Assembly (NCBI GenBank): GCA_903813345.2
Contig: CAIIXF020000006.1
Span: 17,364,348-17,428,347, forward strand
DNA from: Owenia fusiformis
Taxonomy: Eukaryota > Annelida > Polychaeta > Sabellida > Oweniidae
DNA: 64,000 bases
Direction: 5' to 3'
In this document: one piece after another, positions 6,901 to 44,885 of the stretch
Layout: each line of letters begins with the position of its first letter
Position numbering within the stretch: position 1 is the first letter of the stretch
Program-made: the position numbers and the translations under genes
Notes under the pieces: generated by a model
Told to the model about the DNA's origin: nothing
The model's database searches: none
Seen by the model: only the letters and a program-made list of their open reading frames with translations

Positions 6901-9900
6901 TGATGTCTCTGACTTAGTTATAGATTATAATGATCAAATGATAGAATATTGTCTCAACTTCCAAGATATTCTCATTATAATTTTTCTCCTGTCTTTTTTC
7001 ATTTTTCATGTGGATAAATACATAAATGTGTCAAAAGACTGAAAAATATTTTGTAGGTATTTACATATATTTGTGAAGTAGCATTATTGATGCAATGGGG
7101 GTCTCAAATGATCATGTCAACTCCGACACAAATAATTTTGAATTGCTACAGCCTGTTTCAAGCGGCTAGAGTGAACATAATTACAACTCCCGTTTGCAGA
7201 GTAAAACATAAAATAAGTAAAGTGCAATGTGGAACAAATAGAAATAAAGCTGTTTATTAATAAAGAATATGACAATGATATGATCTAACAAAGATCTTAG
7301 TAGAGTTGATCAAAGAATTAAAGAGGCATTGTCTGATAAGAGTACAGTTAAAGTGCTCCTTGATATTTTTTCCATCTACTTGCCAACTGTCAGATTCTGA
7401 CTCCTGCGTTTTGGGAATAAAGGACGATTCTTGGAGAACAGTCTCCTGGGCTAATAATTTTTTCATGAAAAATATAGAAATATTAACCAAATTAAACTAT
7501 GAATATTCAAAAGAGGACATTTAAATCTACAAGATGTAAAAATAACAAATTGGTCTGAAGCAGGGATAACGCTCAATTAGACCGATTCAATAAAATACAA
7601 GTCTCGATTGGGGGAAAAACAGTGTACTGCGCTAATATTTTTTTGCGAAAAATCTAGAAATATCACCCAAATTAAATTATGACTATTCAAAAGAAGACAT
7701 TCAAATCTATATTATGTAAAAAAATCAAATTTGTCCGAAGCAGGGATAATGCTCATTTAGATTGATGAACTTCATTCTCCAAACCGAGAATCGTCCTTTA
7801 TGATAGGACTGAGACACTGAATCTTTTATAAACTGATCAGGGGTTAATTCATGCAAATTGTCTTATTCATTTTTTTTAAGAAATAAAGACATCAAAAGAC
7901 CCCTACCCCTATAGGTGTAAAAAATATAAACAAAATTGGGTCAAAGGTACTTCAGTTGTCACCCAGATGGACTGATGGAGGCATTCCTTATATCCCTACA
8001 ATGTTCGATGGGATAATAAATTAATATTACAAAATGAGTTATTGTTTAATAGGTAATAATAAAATATAAATTAGCTTACTGGACGTGGACCTGCAACGCT
8101 GGATACGTTCACTATTGCACCTAAAATGAACAGTGACTAAATAGAGCAAGGCATTAACATGCAAAATGTCACAGCCTGCCATTAGTTACAGATGCTACAC
8201 ACAAACCACCAAGCATCGTCTTTAAAAAAGCTGGAGACTATAACAATATGTTCTGACTTCTGGTGGTGACATAATAAATACAACTATGTCAAACTGATAC
8301 TTTGTGTTTTAATCTTGAAGCAGAATGTGTTTATATACATGATCAAAGTTTCTGTGACATAGAAGTTTCAAGGCTACAAAACGAGTTAGTATGGACTTTC
8401 CAGAAGGCAAATATTTTCCAATAACAGTCATACCTTTTGTCTTTTTCAAGTATGGAACCACAAGCCTCGATAGTTCAAATGCTGAGCGCATGTTTGTGTT
8501 CATCATGCTGTCATACAATTCCATAGTTGTGTCTTGAAGGCCTCCTGTTTTGAGAGTTGCAGCATTGTTCACCTGTAAAATAAACTTTCTATTTAATGAT
8601 AGATGTCACCCTGATTCTTAGCTGGGACTCAATTGGTTTTATGACATTTGATAACTACATGGTACAGTATTGGAATGGGATGGGGCACAATAAAAGATTT
8701 GCATTTTGCAAGGATGCAGTTGACTACTTGGATACTTATGGCGATGGCCTGATTAGTGAAGAAGAATTTGCAATGGCAATGCCCTTAACTGCTTTAATGG
8801 ACCTCTTTAACTACTGATACTGTACAGTACTGTATATTACTTATTATAAAGTATATGTACATTTTGTCTATGTTTGTGGCATCCAATGTGGGATAACAAA
8901 TTAGTTTTCAATATTGTTCATCTTAAAATCTTGTTAAGTATTCTAACATTCTTACTCTCAAATGGTGATATAAACCCAAGCATGGGCTTTCAAGTTTCTC
9001 GATTTAAAAAATTAAAAGCCCATGATCCAAGTCCATCCTCCAACCAAAATATTATGGAAAATATTATGGAAACATTAACAGTATACTACCCATTGATGAA
9101 AAAGTCCACCAGAGTTTAGCTACTCACAAGCACATCAAGTCTGCCAAACTTCTGTAAAGTATATGTAACGATTCTTTCTAAATCTTCTGTAATTGTGACA
9201 TCGCCCTTTGTAGCTAAAATCTGGAAATATACATATGATTATTTAAGTGACAAAATGGATATGAAATTTGAATTATAACATTAACAATGAATAAGAGAGG
9301 TGTGTCTAGTCTATCAGGATTAGGTTTCAGGAATCCCAAAAAAATGAAGAATAACGAAGGGGTCCATAAATAATTCTCTTTTATCAAATTTTATGATATA
9401 AGAATACATTAGTAATATCAATTGCATATAGGAAAGTATATGCCATATTCCGCATAACACCATGCACATATAGTTATTCTGCAGTTTTTGGCAAGCACTG
9501 GATTAGGATATCAAGCGCATTAGAAATAATGACTGGCACGCGTTGTTATTGTACTCATCTGAAAATAAGGATTAATTACATTTAGTGGTGCAAAAATATA
9601 CAATCACACTATTGTACAAAACATGATTCTAGTGTATTACTGCATGACTATCTCAGAATTGGTTTTGGTATAAAACCAGTGAATCGTTCTGCATAATCAG
9701 CTTACTTTCTTGCCCTCTGTACTAGTGAACAATTTACATTCCTTGCACCCTGTATTGATCAACTTTTGAAACTTTGTACCCTGTACTATGACATATCAAA
9801 TATTTTAAAATTAAAATGATAACATTTATATTCTTCCTTCAACCATCATGTATAACTTTGAACATGGACTATTTCACCATTGAAGTTCAGCGAATAACAA

Positions 9901-12900
9901 TATTGACTAACTTAAAATGTACTGTACTTACATTTGATTCATCATTACATGCTTCAATGCACAAAACCTTTATCTTGTTAAGTCGTTCTTCATTTCTACC
10001 AGTGATTGAGAGTTTAGCACCTAAGGATGCAAAATGTTCAGCACACGCTGCACCAACCCCTGCACTTGCACCTGAAAGTGATATATAGGGGACTTGAAAA
10101 ATCGGAACCCTGCTAAGAACATTAGGTACCCGGTCAGGCCTGTAGCCAGGATTTGCCAAGGGGGGTTCAGTTTTCAAAAATTTCCAGGGGGGGTTCGCAT
10201 TTGACAATTTTGGTCCAAATATGGTTAAAATCATTTGAGAAGTGCTCAAAATGGTGAAAAACTGCATGATTTTGAAAGAATTTTGGCCAGGGGGGGGGGG
10301 GGTTTGCCCGAACCCTGCAAACCCCCCCCCCCTAACCAAACCCGTCTGGCCCAGTTATCTACTCCCAAAGTCTACGGGCTGCCGGTCATCTAGTTATCCA
10401 GCTACCCAGTTAATATGCAACCCATTTTCATTACAAGAGTGACAATCATAAATTATCCATGTTGGTCAATAGTAGCGTTGTCGCGATCGATACATCGCGA
10501 TATACATCGCCAAAGCTGATTCTGGCGATGCTTCGATGTCTGAAACAAAACATTGATGTTTTTAAAAAAAATTAATTTGCTAAAAATCTCACTTTCTTAT
10601 CTTATTTTGATGAAATTGCTTACCTTTCTCATGTCTTGTCTATGTCAATAATCTGCAATGTTTACTACTGAAAATTGCCGATGCATCGATGTACTTTTAT
10701 GGCACAACGTGACAACACTAGTCAATAGTGCTTGCGCAATAATGTTCATTGTATAAAATTATCCCACCTGAACTAAATATTTAATTGAAACGATATACTA
10801 GTATTATCAACAATGCATGATCTGAGCTAACCTTCGTCTTGCAGTTTTACACCAATCATAAATCTCTGTGTGCTTTCTTCTGCCTTATATGAGGCATGTA
10901 GTGATAATAAAATTTGAAATCAACCAGCCACCATTTTTTCATTTCACAATTTTAATTGCGAGTTCTGGTTTTATTACCTCACAAAAACTTTCAAAACACA
11001 CACGAAGTGATCAATTTAAGGTGACTGTTAACTTAATTGATTTTCAGAAAAAATTGAAAATTTCACAATCTTGAAATTTTCAAACTCTTCCTGAGAAGTC
11101 GTTTTTATTATTTCACATATTCTTGTGCACTGTAATCATTACAAAGACATCAAAGAACAACAAAAAACTTTAGTTTGAGAAAAAAGTGCCGTTTAAAGAA
11201 TTTGAGAAGATTTTTTTCTAGGAGTAGCCCGTGAAAAACCCCTGATTCAATATATCTGAACATTTCAGAAAATATACTTCAAACATATATCAAAAACGAA
11301 GGAGCAACGGAAATTTGAAAAATTACCCAATAAAAAAATTGGGATCAAAATAAGGAAAAAAGTACACTTCTCAAATTGTTTCTTCTCAAATTTGTATGAG
11401 AATTTTCAAAATTCTAAAGCTCCTTCCATTTTGAGCTATATTAAAGGGATGTTTCAGAGAAATTAGAAAAAAAATGTTCAGGGACCTTTGCCGTGCTACT
11501 CTTTTTGTCAATTTTTCTGTCACATTTTCAGAGGACTCAAATTCCCATTCCAAAATGTTTACTGTTTCTATTTGCATTACCACAGTGAGCCTGGTTATAT
11601 AAATGATAAGTGGAACTAAAAATTTGAGAGAAAATCCAACCAAAAGACAGTTAATTTTGATGGTCAGATTATACTCAAATGACATGTGCTTCCTGGTTTC
11701 GGCCATCTTGGATTTTTTGATTAAGTTATTAGTTACCTTAAGGTGCTACGGAAGTTAACAGGAAATGACAAAACAGGAAGTGACAATTTTTTTTGCATTT
11801 TTAGACATTTTTTGAACAAAGATAACTGAGTTCTGTTTTGACCTCCAGTCAATTCAACTAGTTCCAAATACCATTTACAGGTCCAGGATCACAATGTTCA
11901 TGGTCAGAATGACCCTAAACATGATGAAATAACCTGTTAAGCACTCTGAAAATGTGACTGAAAAATAGCTAAAAGAAGGAGGTAGGAAAGGTCACTGAAC
12001 AGAATCTTTTGAATTTTTCAGAAAATGTGCCCAATATATTGCTCTAAATGATACAATCTTTGAAAATTTGATATCATATAGAAAAAGAAATAAAACGAAA
12101 AAAAAACTGATTTGAAAAGCAATCTCTTTTCCTTTTTATGAACGCCATTTTTGTTTAAGACAATTTTCTAAAATTTCAAAGATTGTATCAGTTAGAGCAT
12201 TATATTGGGCATATTTTCTGAAAAATTCAAAAGATTCTGTTCAGTGACCTTCCCTAGCTCCTTCTTTTAGCTTTTTTTCAGTCACACTTGCAAAGGGCTA
12301 AAAAGGTTATTCTGACCATGCACATTGTGATCCTGGTCATGTAAATGATATGTGGAAATAGTTAAATTGACTGAAGGTCAAACCAGAACTCTGTTATCTT
12401 TTTTCAAAAAATGTCTAAAAATGCAAATTTTTTTGTCACTTCCTGTTTTGTCATTTCCTGTTAACTTCCATGGCACCTTAAGGTCTCATGGAAGTTAACA
12501 GGAAATGACAAAACAGGAAGTGACAATTTTTTTGGCATTTTTAGACATTTTTTGAACAAAGATAACAGAGTTCACTTTTGAACTCCAGTCAATTCAACTA
12601 GTTCCAGATACCATTTACAGGTCCAGGATCACAATGTTTATGGTCAGAATGACCCTAAATATCATGAAATAACCTTTTCAGCCCTATGAAAATGTGACTG
12701 AAAAATAGCTAAAAGAAGGAGGTAGGAAAGGTCACTGAACAGAATCTTTTGAATTTTTCAGAAAATGTGCCCAATATATTGCTCTAAATGGTACAATCTT
12801 TGAAAATTTGATATCATTCATAGAAAGAGAAAAAAAATGAAAAAACTGATTTGAAAAGCGATCTATTTTCCTTTTTATGACCGCCATTTTTGTTTACGAC

Positions 12901-41749: not shown

Positions 41750-42249
41750 TTAAAGCTGGACTGCGCTCCGAAACGCAATCTTGGGTTGGTTTCGGGGGTG
41801 AACTTTATCATTTTGAGCCTAATGAAAGATTATAGAATGATGAACAAATGGGGCAAATCTTGTGTAGAAATACTTACGATAAATGTGTCATTTCAAAGAT
41901 TATTCATTGAATTGCTTCGATCGGCGCCGACGATATGATTTTGGAAAAGTTTCTAAATGAAGAATGTGACGTCACTTCCGAATCATAGCATTCAAAATAA
42001 ATAGCGTTTAATTACTTTAACATTCATTATAAGACGGTGGTCTAGGGGTACAATTCTCGCTTAGCACGCGGGAGGCCCGGGTTCGAATCCCGCATTTCTT
42101 TTATTTTTTTTAACTAAATGATTGTTCTTTGATATAACGCAGAAAAAAAAACAATTTTTATTTACATAAACTTTATATTAGAGCTTAAAAATGTAAAAAC
42201 AATAATTATATGTCAACATATTGCGTTTTGGAGCGATGTCCAGCTTTAA
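41750..42249. mobile_element. TTAA-flanked element carrying a tRNA-like unit, copy 1 (492 bp)
   Basis: TTAA at 41750-41753 and 42246-42249 flank an element (41754-42245). It starts AGCTGGACTGCGCTCCGAAA and ends with the near inverse TTTTGGAGCGATGTCCAGCT; terminal inverted repeats are about 28 bp including the following CGCAAT. The inside has a unique ~275-bp left part, the tRNA-like unit at 42031-42101, a T-run and a ~140-bp AT-rich right part. No transposase frame. TTAA duplication suggests a piggyBac/Kolobok-type source of transposase (inference). Confidence 0.9.
42031..42101 (+). pseudogene. tRNA-Gly-like Pol III unit with AGC anticodon, copy 1
   Basis: From GGTGGTCTAGGGGTACAATT through the anticodon arm CTCGC-TTAGCAC-GCGGG to GGTTCGAATCC, it follows a tRNA-Gly(GCC) body, but the anticodon reads AGC (an Ala anticodon). 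A box (TGGTCTAGGGG) and B box (GGTTCGAATCC) are intact and a T-run follows within 20 bases. The acceptor stem is weak: AAGACGG against ATTTCTT gives four Watson-Crick pairs and one G-U, and the outer T-stem pair is C-C. Probably not an aminoacylated tRNA; transcription by Pol III is plausible. Confidence 0.75.
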
Positions 42250-42298
42250 GATTGAATTGTTATTCATAAGATATAATTATCTTTACAGCTTTATAGCT

Positions 42299-42795
42299 TT
42301 AAAGCTGGACTACGCTCCGAAACGCAATCTTGGGTTGTTTCGGGGGTGAACTTTATCATTTTGAGCTTAATGAAAGATTATAGAATGATGAACAAATGGG
42401 GCAAATCTTGTGTAGAAATACTTACAATAAATGTGTCATTTCAAAGATTTTTCATTGAATTTGCTTCGATCGGTGCCGGCGATATGATTTTGGAAAGGTT
42501 TCTAAATGAAGAACGTGACGTCACTTCCGAATCATAGCATTCAAAATAAGTAGCGTTTAATTACTTCCTCCTTTCATAATAATACGGTGGTGTAGCGGGT
42601 AGAATCCTCGCTGAGCACGCGGGAGGCCCGGGCTCGAATCCCGCACTAGCCTTTTATTTTTTTAACTAAATGATTGTTCTTTGATATTACGCAGAAAAAA
42701 ACAATTTTTATTTACATAAACTTTATATTAGAGCTTGAAAATGTAAAAACAATATATGTCAACATATTGCGTTTCGGAGCGTAGTCCAGCTTTAA
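42299..42795. mobile_element. TTAA-flanked element carrying a tRNA-like unit, copy 2 (489 bp)
   Basis: TTAA at 42299-42302 and 42792-42795 flank 42303-42791. Termini AGCTGGACTACGCTCCGAAA and TTTCGGAGCGTAGTCCAGCT are exact inverses and continue to about 28 bp. Same orientation and internal order as copy 1, separated from it by only 49 bases of other sequence. The tRNA-like unit is at 42581-42652. Confidence 0.9.
42581..42652 (+). pseudogene. tRNA-Gly-like Pol III unit with AGC anticodon, copy 2
   Basis: GGTGGTGTAGCGGGTAGAAT, anticodon arm CTCGC-TGAGCAC-GCGGG, then GAGGCCCGGGCTCGAATCCC. The AGC anticodon is the same as in copy 1. The B box has one change (GGCTCGAATCC). The acceptor strands AATACGG and ACTAGCC do not pair. 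CTTTTATTTTTTT directly follows as a terminator. The anticodon arm stays paired while the acceptor stem is lost, which fits a tRNA-derived cassette rather than a working tRNA. Confidence 0.75.
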
Positions 42796-42799
42796 TTGT

Positions 42800-44885
42800 T
42801 TGTGAATTATTGATTTTATTCTTAATATCAATTTTTTGGAAATCATGGCAAATACAAACCTATATTTGTTTCAATGAAATATGTGCGAAATGCAACAGGA
42901 AAGAGAAATAAAGATACAAAGAAAGTAGCTAAGCTGATAGTTCTTTGAAGCTCACAAGCTAAATAGTGCTTGAAAAGTGTAATCAGGCAGTAGTCTTGCT
43001 ACCTGAGGTCATGGTCATGTTTGAAGGTCAAGGTCACCCAAAATGATAAAGGTCAATATATAAAGGAATTATATGACAGGGCTCACAAAGAATAATATTT
43101 CATTGCCCAAATTTAAGTTCAAAGAGGTCAGGGTTATTTAAAATAAGGTCACACACCCTGGGATTGCCATCCCCCAATGGGTACCCTGTTAGTTGTACAA
43201 ATATCTGGACAAATCATGCGTCAATACCTTGTGACAAAGAAATGATTTCCTCTCAAATCAACTTCATTGATGGGCTCATTAGAGTCAATGGTGTTTCCTA
43301 ACGACTCAATCATATTGTACTACTATTGGCAATGCTCACACAAAAAATGAATTCATTAGATACCCTATGTGTTAGAGCAGGGCCATGGAGTGTTTTGAAA
43401 GTTTAAGGATAAAAAACATGTTAAACATACAATTTCTACTTCATGCCTAAGAATGTAATATCAATATGATCAGTATTTAAGATGCAGAATATTGTGGAAA
43501 TCATTAAAACATTAAATATATCAACTTTTAATATTTCTTTGTGATTAGAATTACATTAAATACAGTGTAATATTGTTATTAAAAGTAGCAATAAATTGGG
43601 TAGAGCAAGCGTGGTCAAAATATTTCAGTCACAGGAAATCTGCTTTGAATCTTATAGGATTCAATGATGAAGACATGATATACTAAAAGTTCTTAAAACA
43701 GCTGGTGTAGATTTCATTGGAGATAAGTCACAAATACTGAAAATAAGTTCCTCATAGATTTGAAATTCAATTGAATTTGGCATCCTTGTGTTTTTTGTTG
43801 ATTAAAGAATCATGTTAAAATAATACCATTACAGTCAAATATCCTGAAAGGTGGGTCTGATTTCTGGAGCAAAAATCCTCAACATAGGTTGCTATTTTGG
43901 ACTGTCAGCTGAACCTTAATATGGCTTCCAAGCAAATGATAGGCCAAGCTATCCTCTACGTGGGAGGACCCCCGAGGAAAAGCATAATAAAGACTTTATC
44001 CCTGTTACGTCTATTGCAAAACAGCACATTTTGCCCATTCAAGGTCTTTTTCATAGAAGGTAATATTATAATGATAAGGTTCAATTGTCAAATTCACCAT
44101 ATGTTGCTTTGAATTGTATTTTTGCAACTGACTGATGTTTTATGATGAGACTGAAGGAATGATATCCTATCAGGGTAGGCACTTTTCTATTCATTCCCTG
44201 GGATTCATTCCAAACACAACTCATCATTGAGTATGACGTGTCGCAGCCATAAACCATTTTCTAAATTAAATAAAAAACTAAAAGTATTAATTACAAAGAC
44301 CATCAGCCAAGTGTCTCTCTGCCATTTCAATTCACGCCATTGAACAGAGGACGGATCCAGGAAAAAGCTGTGCTCAAAATATCATCAATTCAGGGCAAGA
44401 CTGTTGCAGAAACCTCACCCGGGGGACCAAAGAACCTGCAACTCATGACACTCATGACAGTGGCTATAGCTGACATAAATTAAAGGTTATTTACCACATC
44501 TTTCATTTGGCGAGAGCCTGACAATTATTTGAATCGTTTCAGGATATCTGTTCCGCTCCTGATGATTGCAGTAGGTTTAATTAATAGCCTCCCTCTGAAA
44601 CTCTGTCTAATGCTTTACACAAATTGTATGAATAATTTTAATCAACCAGCCAACACTTGATGGGATTGGACTTGCTTCAGTGGAGCTGGCAATCACCAGA
44701 CTCTGCAAAGTACGGCTAGATACACGTCAATTTAATTCAAATCTGGGGCAAGATTAGTGTCAAGTTGATTTAAAGGCTCTTGTTTGTGGTTTGTGGGATT
44801 TTTAAAGTGACACAATGATGAATTTTTTAAAAGATGAAACTAACATGAAGATTCGTAAGACATGTTTTCTATTTGTTGCATCTGA
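42800..44885. other. mostly single-copy, no gene called
   Basis: Contains a cluster of AGGTCA/GGTCA sites at about 43009-43152. A 71-codon frame at 43897-44112 has no splice or start support. 44100-44760 is of balanced composition and could be conserved non-coding DNA. Confidence 0.4.

Follow-up and report, generated by a model that had tools for sequence, protein, structure and literature searches.

The window, a 64,000-nucleotide stretch of the Owenia fusiformis genome (498 Mb in 525 contigs), contains two copies of a MITE, both on the forward strand. Copy 1, which belongs to subfamily GCACAAAA, occupies positions 41750-42249, with a TTAA at each end enclosing the element proper at 41754-42245. 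Copy 2, a member of the young subfamily ATTTGGTG, extends over 42299-42795, with the element proper at 42303-42791, and likewise carries TTAA at each end. The left terminal inverted repeats lie on the forward strand (41754-41779 in copy 1 and 42303-42328 in copy 2) and the right ones on the reverse strand (42220-42245 and 42766-42791, respectively); with the TTAA included, the two termini are complementary at 30 of 30 positions in copy 2 and at 27 of 30 (90%) in copy 1. Only a minority of copies share the perfect right terminus of copy 2: within its subfamily it was seen in 12 of 39, and the right end that occurs most often genome-wide (...GATGTGCAGGTTTAA) is imperfect.

Each copy encloses a tRNA-Gly-derived Pol III unit on the forward strand, located at 42031-42101 in copy 1 and at 42581-42652 in copy 2. 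The consensus is TRGYNNANNNG for the A box and GGTTCGANTCC for the B box; copy 1 reads TGGTCTAGGGG (42038-42048) and GGTTCGAATCC (42080-42090) at these two places on the same strand, and copy 2 reads TGGTGTAGCGG (42588-42598) and GGCTCGAATCC (42631-42641), the latter with one mismatch. T-run terminators follow at 42099-42111 and 42652-42663, also on the forward strand. In the cmscan output, the unit of copy 1 scored 22.9 bits for tRNA (RF00005), below the Rfam gathering cut-off of 29; the unit of copy 2 was absent from the output at E values up to 1, and ARAGORN called no tRNA gene in the window. Re-reading the window sequence bore out the first-pass annotation in its account of two elements with inverted termini, TTAA at all four ends, and A box, B box and T-runs at matching internal places. 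Its description of the pair as two tandem copies stood insofar as the two elements lie 49 bp apart. A tandem duplication of one element is ruled out because the copies fall in different subfamilies, and for the same reason they represent two separate insertions.

The RNA-family scan of the window also returned microRNA hits with scores below gathering, which are explained by the inverted ends that face each other across the 49-bp gap. Repeats of the AAGGTCAAGGTCACC type lie near the pair, at window positions 43000-43060, and a similar motif flanks the loci L039 and L096. Elsewhere in the window, an open stretch of 155 aa (9890-10354) gave a weak, below-cut-off match to short-chain dehydrogenase; only one other stop-to-stop frame in the window reaches at least 150 aa.

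Of 83 full-length copies, 80 are bordered by TTAA on both sides, and unoccupied sites were available for comparison. The copy at L028 lies within a tandem repeat; adjacent units have the site unoccupied with a single TTAA, and the joined empty site agrees at 81 of 81 bases with positions 621-701 of the same locus. Over 80 bases, the joined site of L007 gave a gap-free alignment at 90% with the flank of L038, where the site holds one TTAA; the copy at L005 lies in a repeat, and the following unit of that repeat has TTCA at the corresponding place. Insertion of the MITE makes a 4-bp TTAA duplication, as had been proposed from the window alone; chance TTAA flanks are ruled out by the single 4-bp unoccupied sites together with the count of 80 in 83.

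Including its TTAA, the MITE measures 497 bp, and the element of roughly 490 bp is short, inverted-ended, homogeneous and present at high copy number. With copy 2 as the genome query, at least 40 full-length copies were recovered at 97-100% identity (718 first-look candidates, of which 40 were scored). The left 39 bases, which represent the young left end, gave 191 genome matches at up to 3 mismatches and a 31-base tRNA core gave 372, against 0 for the reversed-pattern control in both searches, and the features of both window copies therefore lie far beyond chance. A degenerate end pattern, which permitted the MITE's own bases, yielded 542 genome matches against 0 in the reversed control. Among the 100 matches listed for this pattern, the commonest end was TTAAACCTGCACATCGCTCC, which seems ancestral because it was seen at right ends and at some left ends. 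The young subfamilies have a different left end, and some copies, including window copy 2, carry that change at the right end.

The expectation that copies with these ends would mostly hold the tRNA-like unit proved correct from either end of the element. In a left-end sample of 99 places among the matches listed, with window copy 2 excluded, 98 were retrieved, and the B arm was present in 88 of these 98 within the approximately 600 bp read; the unit was also present in 18 of 20 copies picked by their right end. The exceptions in the left-end sample were of several kinds. L024, L069, L071 and L085 contain an extra insertion, with the tRNA core further on, L005 has lost the unit by internal deletion, and the L072 stretch ends inside the unit. 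In L034, L084 and L130 the start of the unit is preserved and the B arm is wholly or partly gone, and in L095 the element breaks off at position 85. The extra insertion at about element position 81 is common to L069 and L085 (the elements L055 and L057 read from the other side), and a composite MITE carrying it may have spread by itself.

A search with the tRNA-like unit alone, which the first-pass annotation had suggested, led back to the same element: all 20 loci picked by the tRNA core sit within the MITE. Of these, 17 had been chosen for having no left end nearby among the matches listed and the other 3 for an unusually distant left end; these 3 are the elements already listed as L069, L071 and L085. 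The tRNA-derived unit is a property of the MITE family, which probably acquired it before the sampled subfamilies parted and has inherited it since. As candidate sources, a free-standing SINE was rejected with 20 of 20 core loci inside the MITE, and ancestral copies lacking the unit were rejected with 0 genome sites for its surroundings joined without it, searched as an exact pattern with a gap of 0-30 only.

For comparison with the presumptive parent gene, an anticodon-arm pattern of tRNA-Gly(GCC), written from recall, gave 23 genome matches, and the three loci taken hold tRNA-Gly(GCC) genes. The consensus unit is identical to the gene at 48 of 71 positions, and most of the 23 mismatched positions fall in the acceptor strands and the anticodon loop; an older form of the unit has 57 identities to the gene in a gapped alignment. 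In the acceptor stem, five of the seven base pairs are possible in only 0-14 of 96-98 copies and the remaining two in 75 of 96 and 85 of 97, whereas four of the five pairs of the T stem, and every one of the five in the anticodon stem, are retained in about 90% of copies or more. ARAGORN called a tRNA in 2 of 83 copies. The A box was intact in 93 of 101 copies and the B box in 84, and a run of at least four T was present in 100. Judged by its sequence, the unit is a degenerate tRNA-Gly(GCC) body that is predicted to give no working tRNA. Because the boxes and the T-run are kept and most acceptor pairs are lost, the Pol III promoter appears to survive where the tRNA does not. Tandem arrays of tRNA-Gly(GCC) genes were additionally observed at L162 and L163, with units of about 150 bp in L162.

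The unit is the site of strong local hypermutation, about 11 times the rest of the element at family consensus positions 266-275 and 346-349. The first sign, in 46 copies, was a variable block directly before the unit. On the forward strand of the window, the 5' hypermutated zone (consensus 266-289) corresponds to 42015-42037 in copy 1, where it is one base shorter, and to 42564-42587 in copy 2; the 3' zone (consensus 346-349, tRNA positions 66-69) corresponds to 42094-42097 in copy 1, with a small alignment gap, and to 42645-42648 in copy 2. When 83 copies were grouped by the sequence outside 255-362 (72 of the 83 counted, in two clusters, with clusters of fewer than 6 copies excluded), the background was 0.95%, and consensus 266-275 and 346-350 reached 16-23 times this value. 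Because the grouped count includes variants shared within subfamilies, changes were recounted by parsimony on trees, using FastTree and Fitch on 101 copies (the other 39 of the 140 sequences fell short of full length and were excluded). The main tree was built from all columns, which works against the hypermutation claim. On this tree, consensus 266-275, the ten bases starting 17 before tRNA position 1, accumulated 95 changes in 10 sites, 11.5 times the rest of the element; consensus 276-289 followed with 82 changes in 14 sites (7.1-fold), consensus 346-349 with 37 changes in 4 sites (11.2-fold) and consensus 350-352 with a 6.9-fold excess. The corresponding values were 2.9 for the A box, 1.8 for the B box, 1.5 for the T-run and 1.0 elsewhere on both sides. 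A tree built from the outside columns placed the peaks at 14.5-fold and 14.2-fold. The 24-bp 5' window summed to 177 changes, against at most 112 in 20,000 permutations (0 of 20,000 reached 177), and no 24-bp window outside the hot region exceeded 41.

Counts were also made without the trees. In the three largest subfamilies, which comprise 78 of the 101 copies, differences from the subfamily consensus yielded hot-zone ratios of 8.2, 11.4 and 15.7, and restricting the count to variants in at most 3 copies yielded 11.0, 7.3 and 21.6. With single-copy variants only, the ratio was 2.8-fold (59 copies) and 6.0-fold (13 copies), values that are lower because recurrent hits at hot sites are excluded, which biases the count down. 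Strict A- and B-box positions were changed in 14 of 1143 cells, against 373 of 5055 in the rest of the unit (72 copies; P = 3e-19, optimistic in that cells are not independent). These strict positions changed at the background rate and not below it (P = 0.35; 72 copies), so no purifying selection on the boxes is demonstrated.

A lineage with a separate history of multiplication showed the same excess. A shortened MITE, apparently the product of a loss between two CTTCG repeats, lies inside another repeat, X, in at least 12 loci (L042, L049, L050, L058, L101, L104, L109, L110, L111, L114, L116 and L119). The left part of X reads GGAATGTACTAAAAACCC... and its right part ...TGTATTCAAGCACATTCG.... 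The empty site of X had 0 genome matches at up to 3 mismatches, and X therefore seems to have spread with the MITE inside. Among the X-borne copies, 25 of 278 cells were changed in the 5' hot zone, compared with 64 of 4798 in the surrounding MITE and X DNA (P = 3.6e-12, again optimistic as a cell-based value). The A arm varied as much as the 5' zone (13 of 154 cells), chiefly, as judged by eye, at degenerate box positions and just after the box. Since the excess is present in the X-borne lineage, it follows the tRNA unit and not MITE transposition.

Differences in the unit were also found between copies that are otherwise the same. Fifteen pairs identical at 382 background sites, which come from 12 copies and hence are not independent, differed by a mean of 5.9 bases in 84 unit sites, and among 80 pairs that mismatch at no more than one of 381 background sites, 79 differed in the 28 hottest sites. 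Such variation could have come down from a large number of old source copies, with selection for diversity maintaining it, instead of arising in each copy, and some hot-zone variants are indeed common to several copies of one subfamily. However, the element moves as one piece, so that old sources should differ outside the unit too, and L011, L012, L064, L075 and L098, which are identical at the 382 other sites, carry different sets of unit changes; we consider inheritance of this kind highly improbable. Alternatively, the changes could arise in a burst at or just after transposition, through error-prone gap repair and not transcription, which would be compatible with the other readings. The differences in the unit already number about 5-6 at 0-1 background differences and only roughly double by 10, as a burst would have it, but choosing the closest pairs inflates this apparent intercept. 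Moreover, the zone lies about 210 bp or more from either end, where less gap repair is expected, and the X-borne copies, multiplied inside another repeat, also show it. A burst of this sort seems very unlikely to us.

The hot zones lie directly outside the A and B boxes and end at the T-run. Because they flank an intact promoter and end at its terminator, and because the flanks of tRNA genes are known to mutate fast, Pol III transcription of the copies is the simplest reading; according to the accessible text of one report, fast mutation of the immediate flanks of tRNA genes through transcription is established elsewhere (PMC8113476). Copies that have lost the B box by deletion bear on whether the pattern depends on transcription. 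The full-length L034 and L130 and the copy at L084, whose right part is also lost, had 0 changes in the 24-bp 5' zone, with 2 background changes in L034 and 5 in L130. Zero-change copies in the matching subfamilies numbered 11 of 38 for L130, 2 of 9 for L034 and 0 of 29 for L084, the last having been matched to its subfamily by the zone and left end only. L112, also without a B box, was excluded as too old and diverged, and L109 because most of the zone is lost, so that the zone was unchanged in 3 of 3 assessable copies. This is what promoter dependence predicts, in a comparison that is small (three copies) and was made after the pattern had been noticed.

The unit might instead be inert, a SINE or tRNA pseudogene trapped in the MITE, with the zones reflecting a sequence or structure hotspot unrelated to Pol III. 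In line with this, the hot-zone load was equal in copies with point faults in the boxes: among 87 of the 101 copies (clusters of fewer than 6 copies excluded), those with any A- or B-box fault, mostly point changes, were no less mutated than the others (mean 3.2 in 18 copies versus 3.7 in 69, P = 0.84). Strand asymmetry within the hot zone was not significant (P = 0.67 and 0.11), which likewise favours an inert unit; between the zones it was nominal only (C>T versus G>A, P = 0.026). Real tRNA genes served as a control, covering a Lys array on C8 (5 genes), with a peak at -20..-1, a Lys array on C7 (9 genes), with a raised -10..-1 bin among other raised bins, and 22 Gly(GCC) array genes, which had no flank peak (50 pairs upstream and 59 downstream) and in that respect also agree with an inert unit; the arrays at L122-L124 were left out. 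Because arrays homogenise, this control is weak either way. Against an inert unit, however, stand the placement of the hot zones directly outside the boxes with their stop at the T-run, and the greater variation of degenerate A-box positions (10 of 360 cells changed) compared with strict ones (3 of 432). The recurrence of the pattern in the X-borne lineage and the unchanged zone of the three copies without a B box point the same way, as does the hot sequence itself, which by eye has few CpGs and no simple repeat. We regard an inert unit as rather unlikely.

The reading that we favour, and judge to be probable, is that a TTAA MITE with a captured tRNA-Gly(GCC) Pol III unit has been hypermutated through Pol III transcription, presumed to take place in the germ line. 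A non-autonomous cut-and-paste element that targets TTAA would have captured the tRNA-Gly(GCC)-derived unit before the sampled subfamilies parted. In the germ line, Pol III would bind and transcribe new copies, either now or when they were young; where the DNA is melted, around the start site and ahead of the terminator, it would be damaged or badly repaired, and each copy would thereby gain its own mutations in those stretches. Strict promoter positions could remain near background through TFIIIC shielding, or because a copy has to keep a functional promoter in order to leave progeny. A TTAA-specific transposase acting in trans would mobilise the element. Most likely the unit is a passenger, putatively transcribed, and open Pol III chromatin may indirectly benefit the element. 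We think it unlikely that the transposon uses the Pol III unit as a functional component, an active tRNA-type promoter that would keep new copies open and mobile and leave a copy-specific record of mutation as a by-product. If that were true, the unit would be a hypermutating cassette carried by a DNA transposon through its subfamilies.

The MITE resembles several known systems in part. Like a tRNA-derived SINE, it holds a unit derived from a tRNA, with an A box, a B box and a T-run terminator. Unlike such a SINE, the MITE has terminal inverted repeats, a fixed TTAA duplication and no sign of retroposition at its ends; its tRNA unit is internal, with about 280 bp upstream, and is not mobile alone, given the location of the 20 core loci. 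Transcription-associated mutation at tRNA genes, with raised change in the immediate flanks, has reportedly been described by Thornlow et al. in 2018, and the MITE resembles that case in the raised change in the immediate flanks of its Pol III unit. In contrast to tRNA genes, the MITE is a mobile element that holds no working tRNA and whose copies, which can be aligned, number in the hundreds. In real tRNA genes, selection makes it difficult to isolate the mutations that Pol III transcription causes; in this family, one Pol III unit stands in hundreds of related copies where no working tRNA results, and about 380 bp within each copy serve as an internal control. Where the effect falls, how large it is and what spectrum it has can be measured base by base, and the family offers natural promoter knock-outs.

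A SINE-derived segment spread inside a non-autonomous DNA transposon is a known kind of arrangement because of MER6/MER6A, a Tc1/Mariner MITE that, in the accessible text of its description, carries the body and tail of a V-SINE without the tRNA-related head and is reported as no longer active (PMC6887750). Compared with MER6 as described there, the Owenia MITE keeps the tRNA head with its Pol III promoter, targets TTAA and has young copies. Literature covered at the level of titles and abstract openings, with few subscription journals, yielded no description of a MITE keeping a tRNA promoter, or of such a mutation footprint in a transposon. In the Owenia element, a DNA transposon has retained a tRNA-type promoter across its subfamilies.

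The TTAA target is shared with piggyBac, whose typical ends are C-rich; Kolobok is another TTAA superfamily. An autonomous TTAA-type element with the same ends, which the first-pass annotation had put forward as a partner to look for, was not found among the end searches and 14 piggyBac loci, a coverage in which a partner could be missed. The genome search for MITE ends around a different interior returned only altered MITE copies (3, 3 and 1 places) and would miss a partner sharing MITE-like subterminal bases. L095 was rejected as an autonomous element, as its 6.8-kb extension contains no ORF of 100 aa. The genome gave 113 matches to the piggyBac family, where one locus can give several, and no ends common to the MITE were detected in 14 loci from these matches (8 scanned for the end motif and 6 by BLAST). 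Candidate inverted pairs beginning TTAAC were found in 7 of the 8 scanned loci, in contrast to the MITE ends TTAAACCTGCAC/TTAAAGCTGGAC. Among the best 8 of the 113 matches, seven have stop-free frames of 560-606 aa; in addition, other piggyBac loci form three pairs that are 99% identical over 4.5-5 kb and lie at distant places. These stop-free frames and near-identical pairs (L148-L154 and L156-L161) suggest that piggyBac elements have recently been active in this genome.
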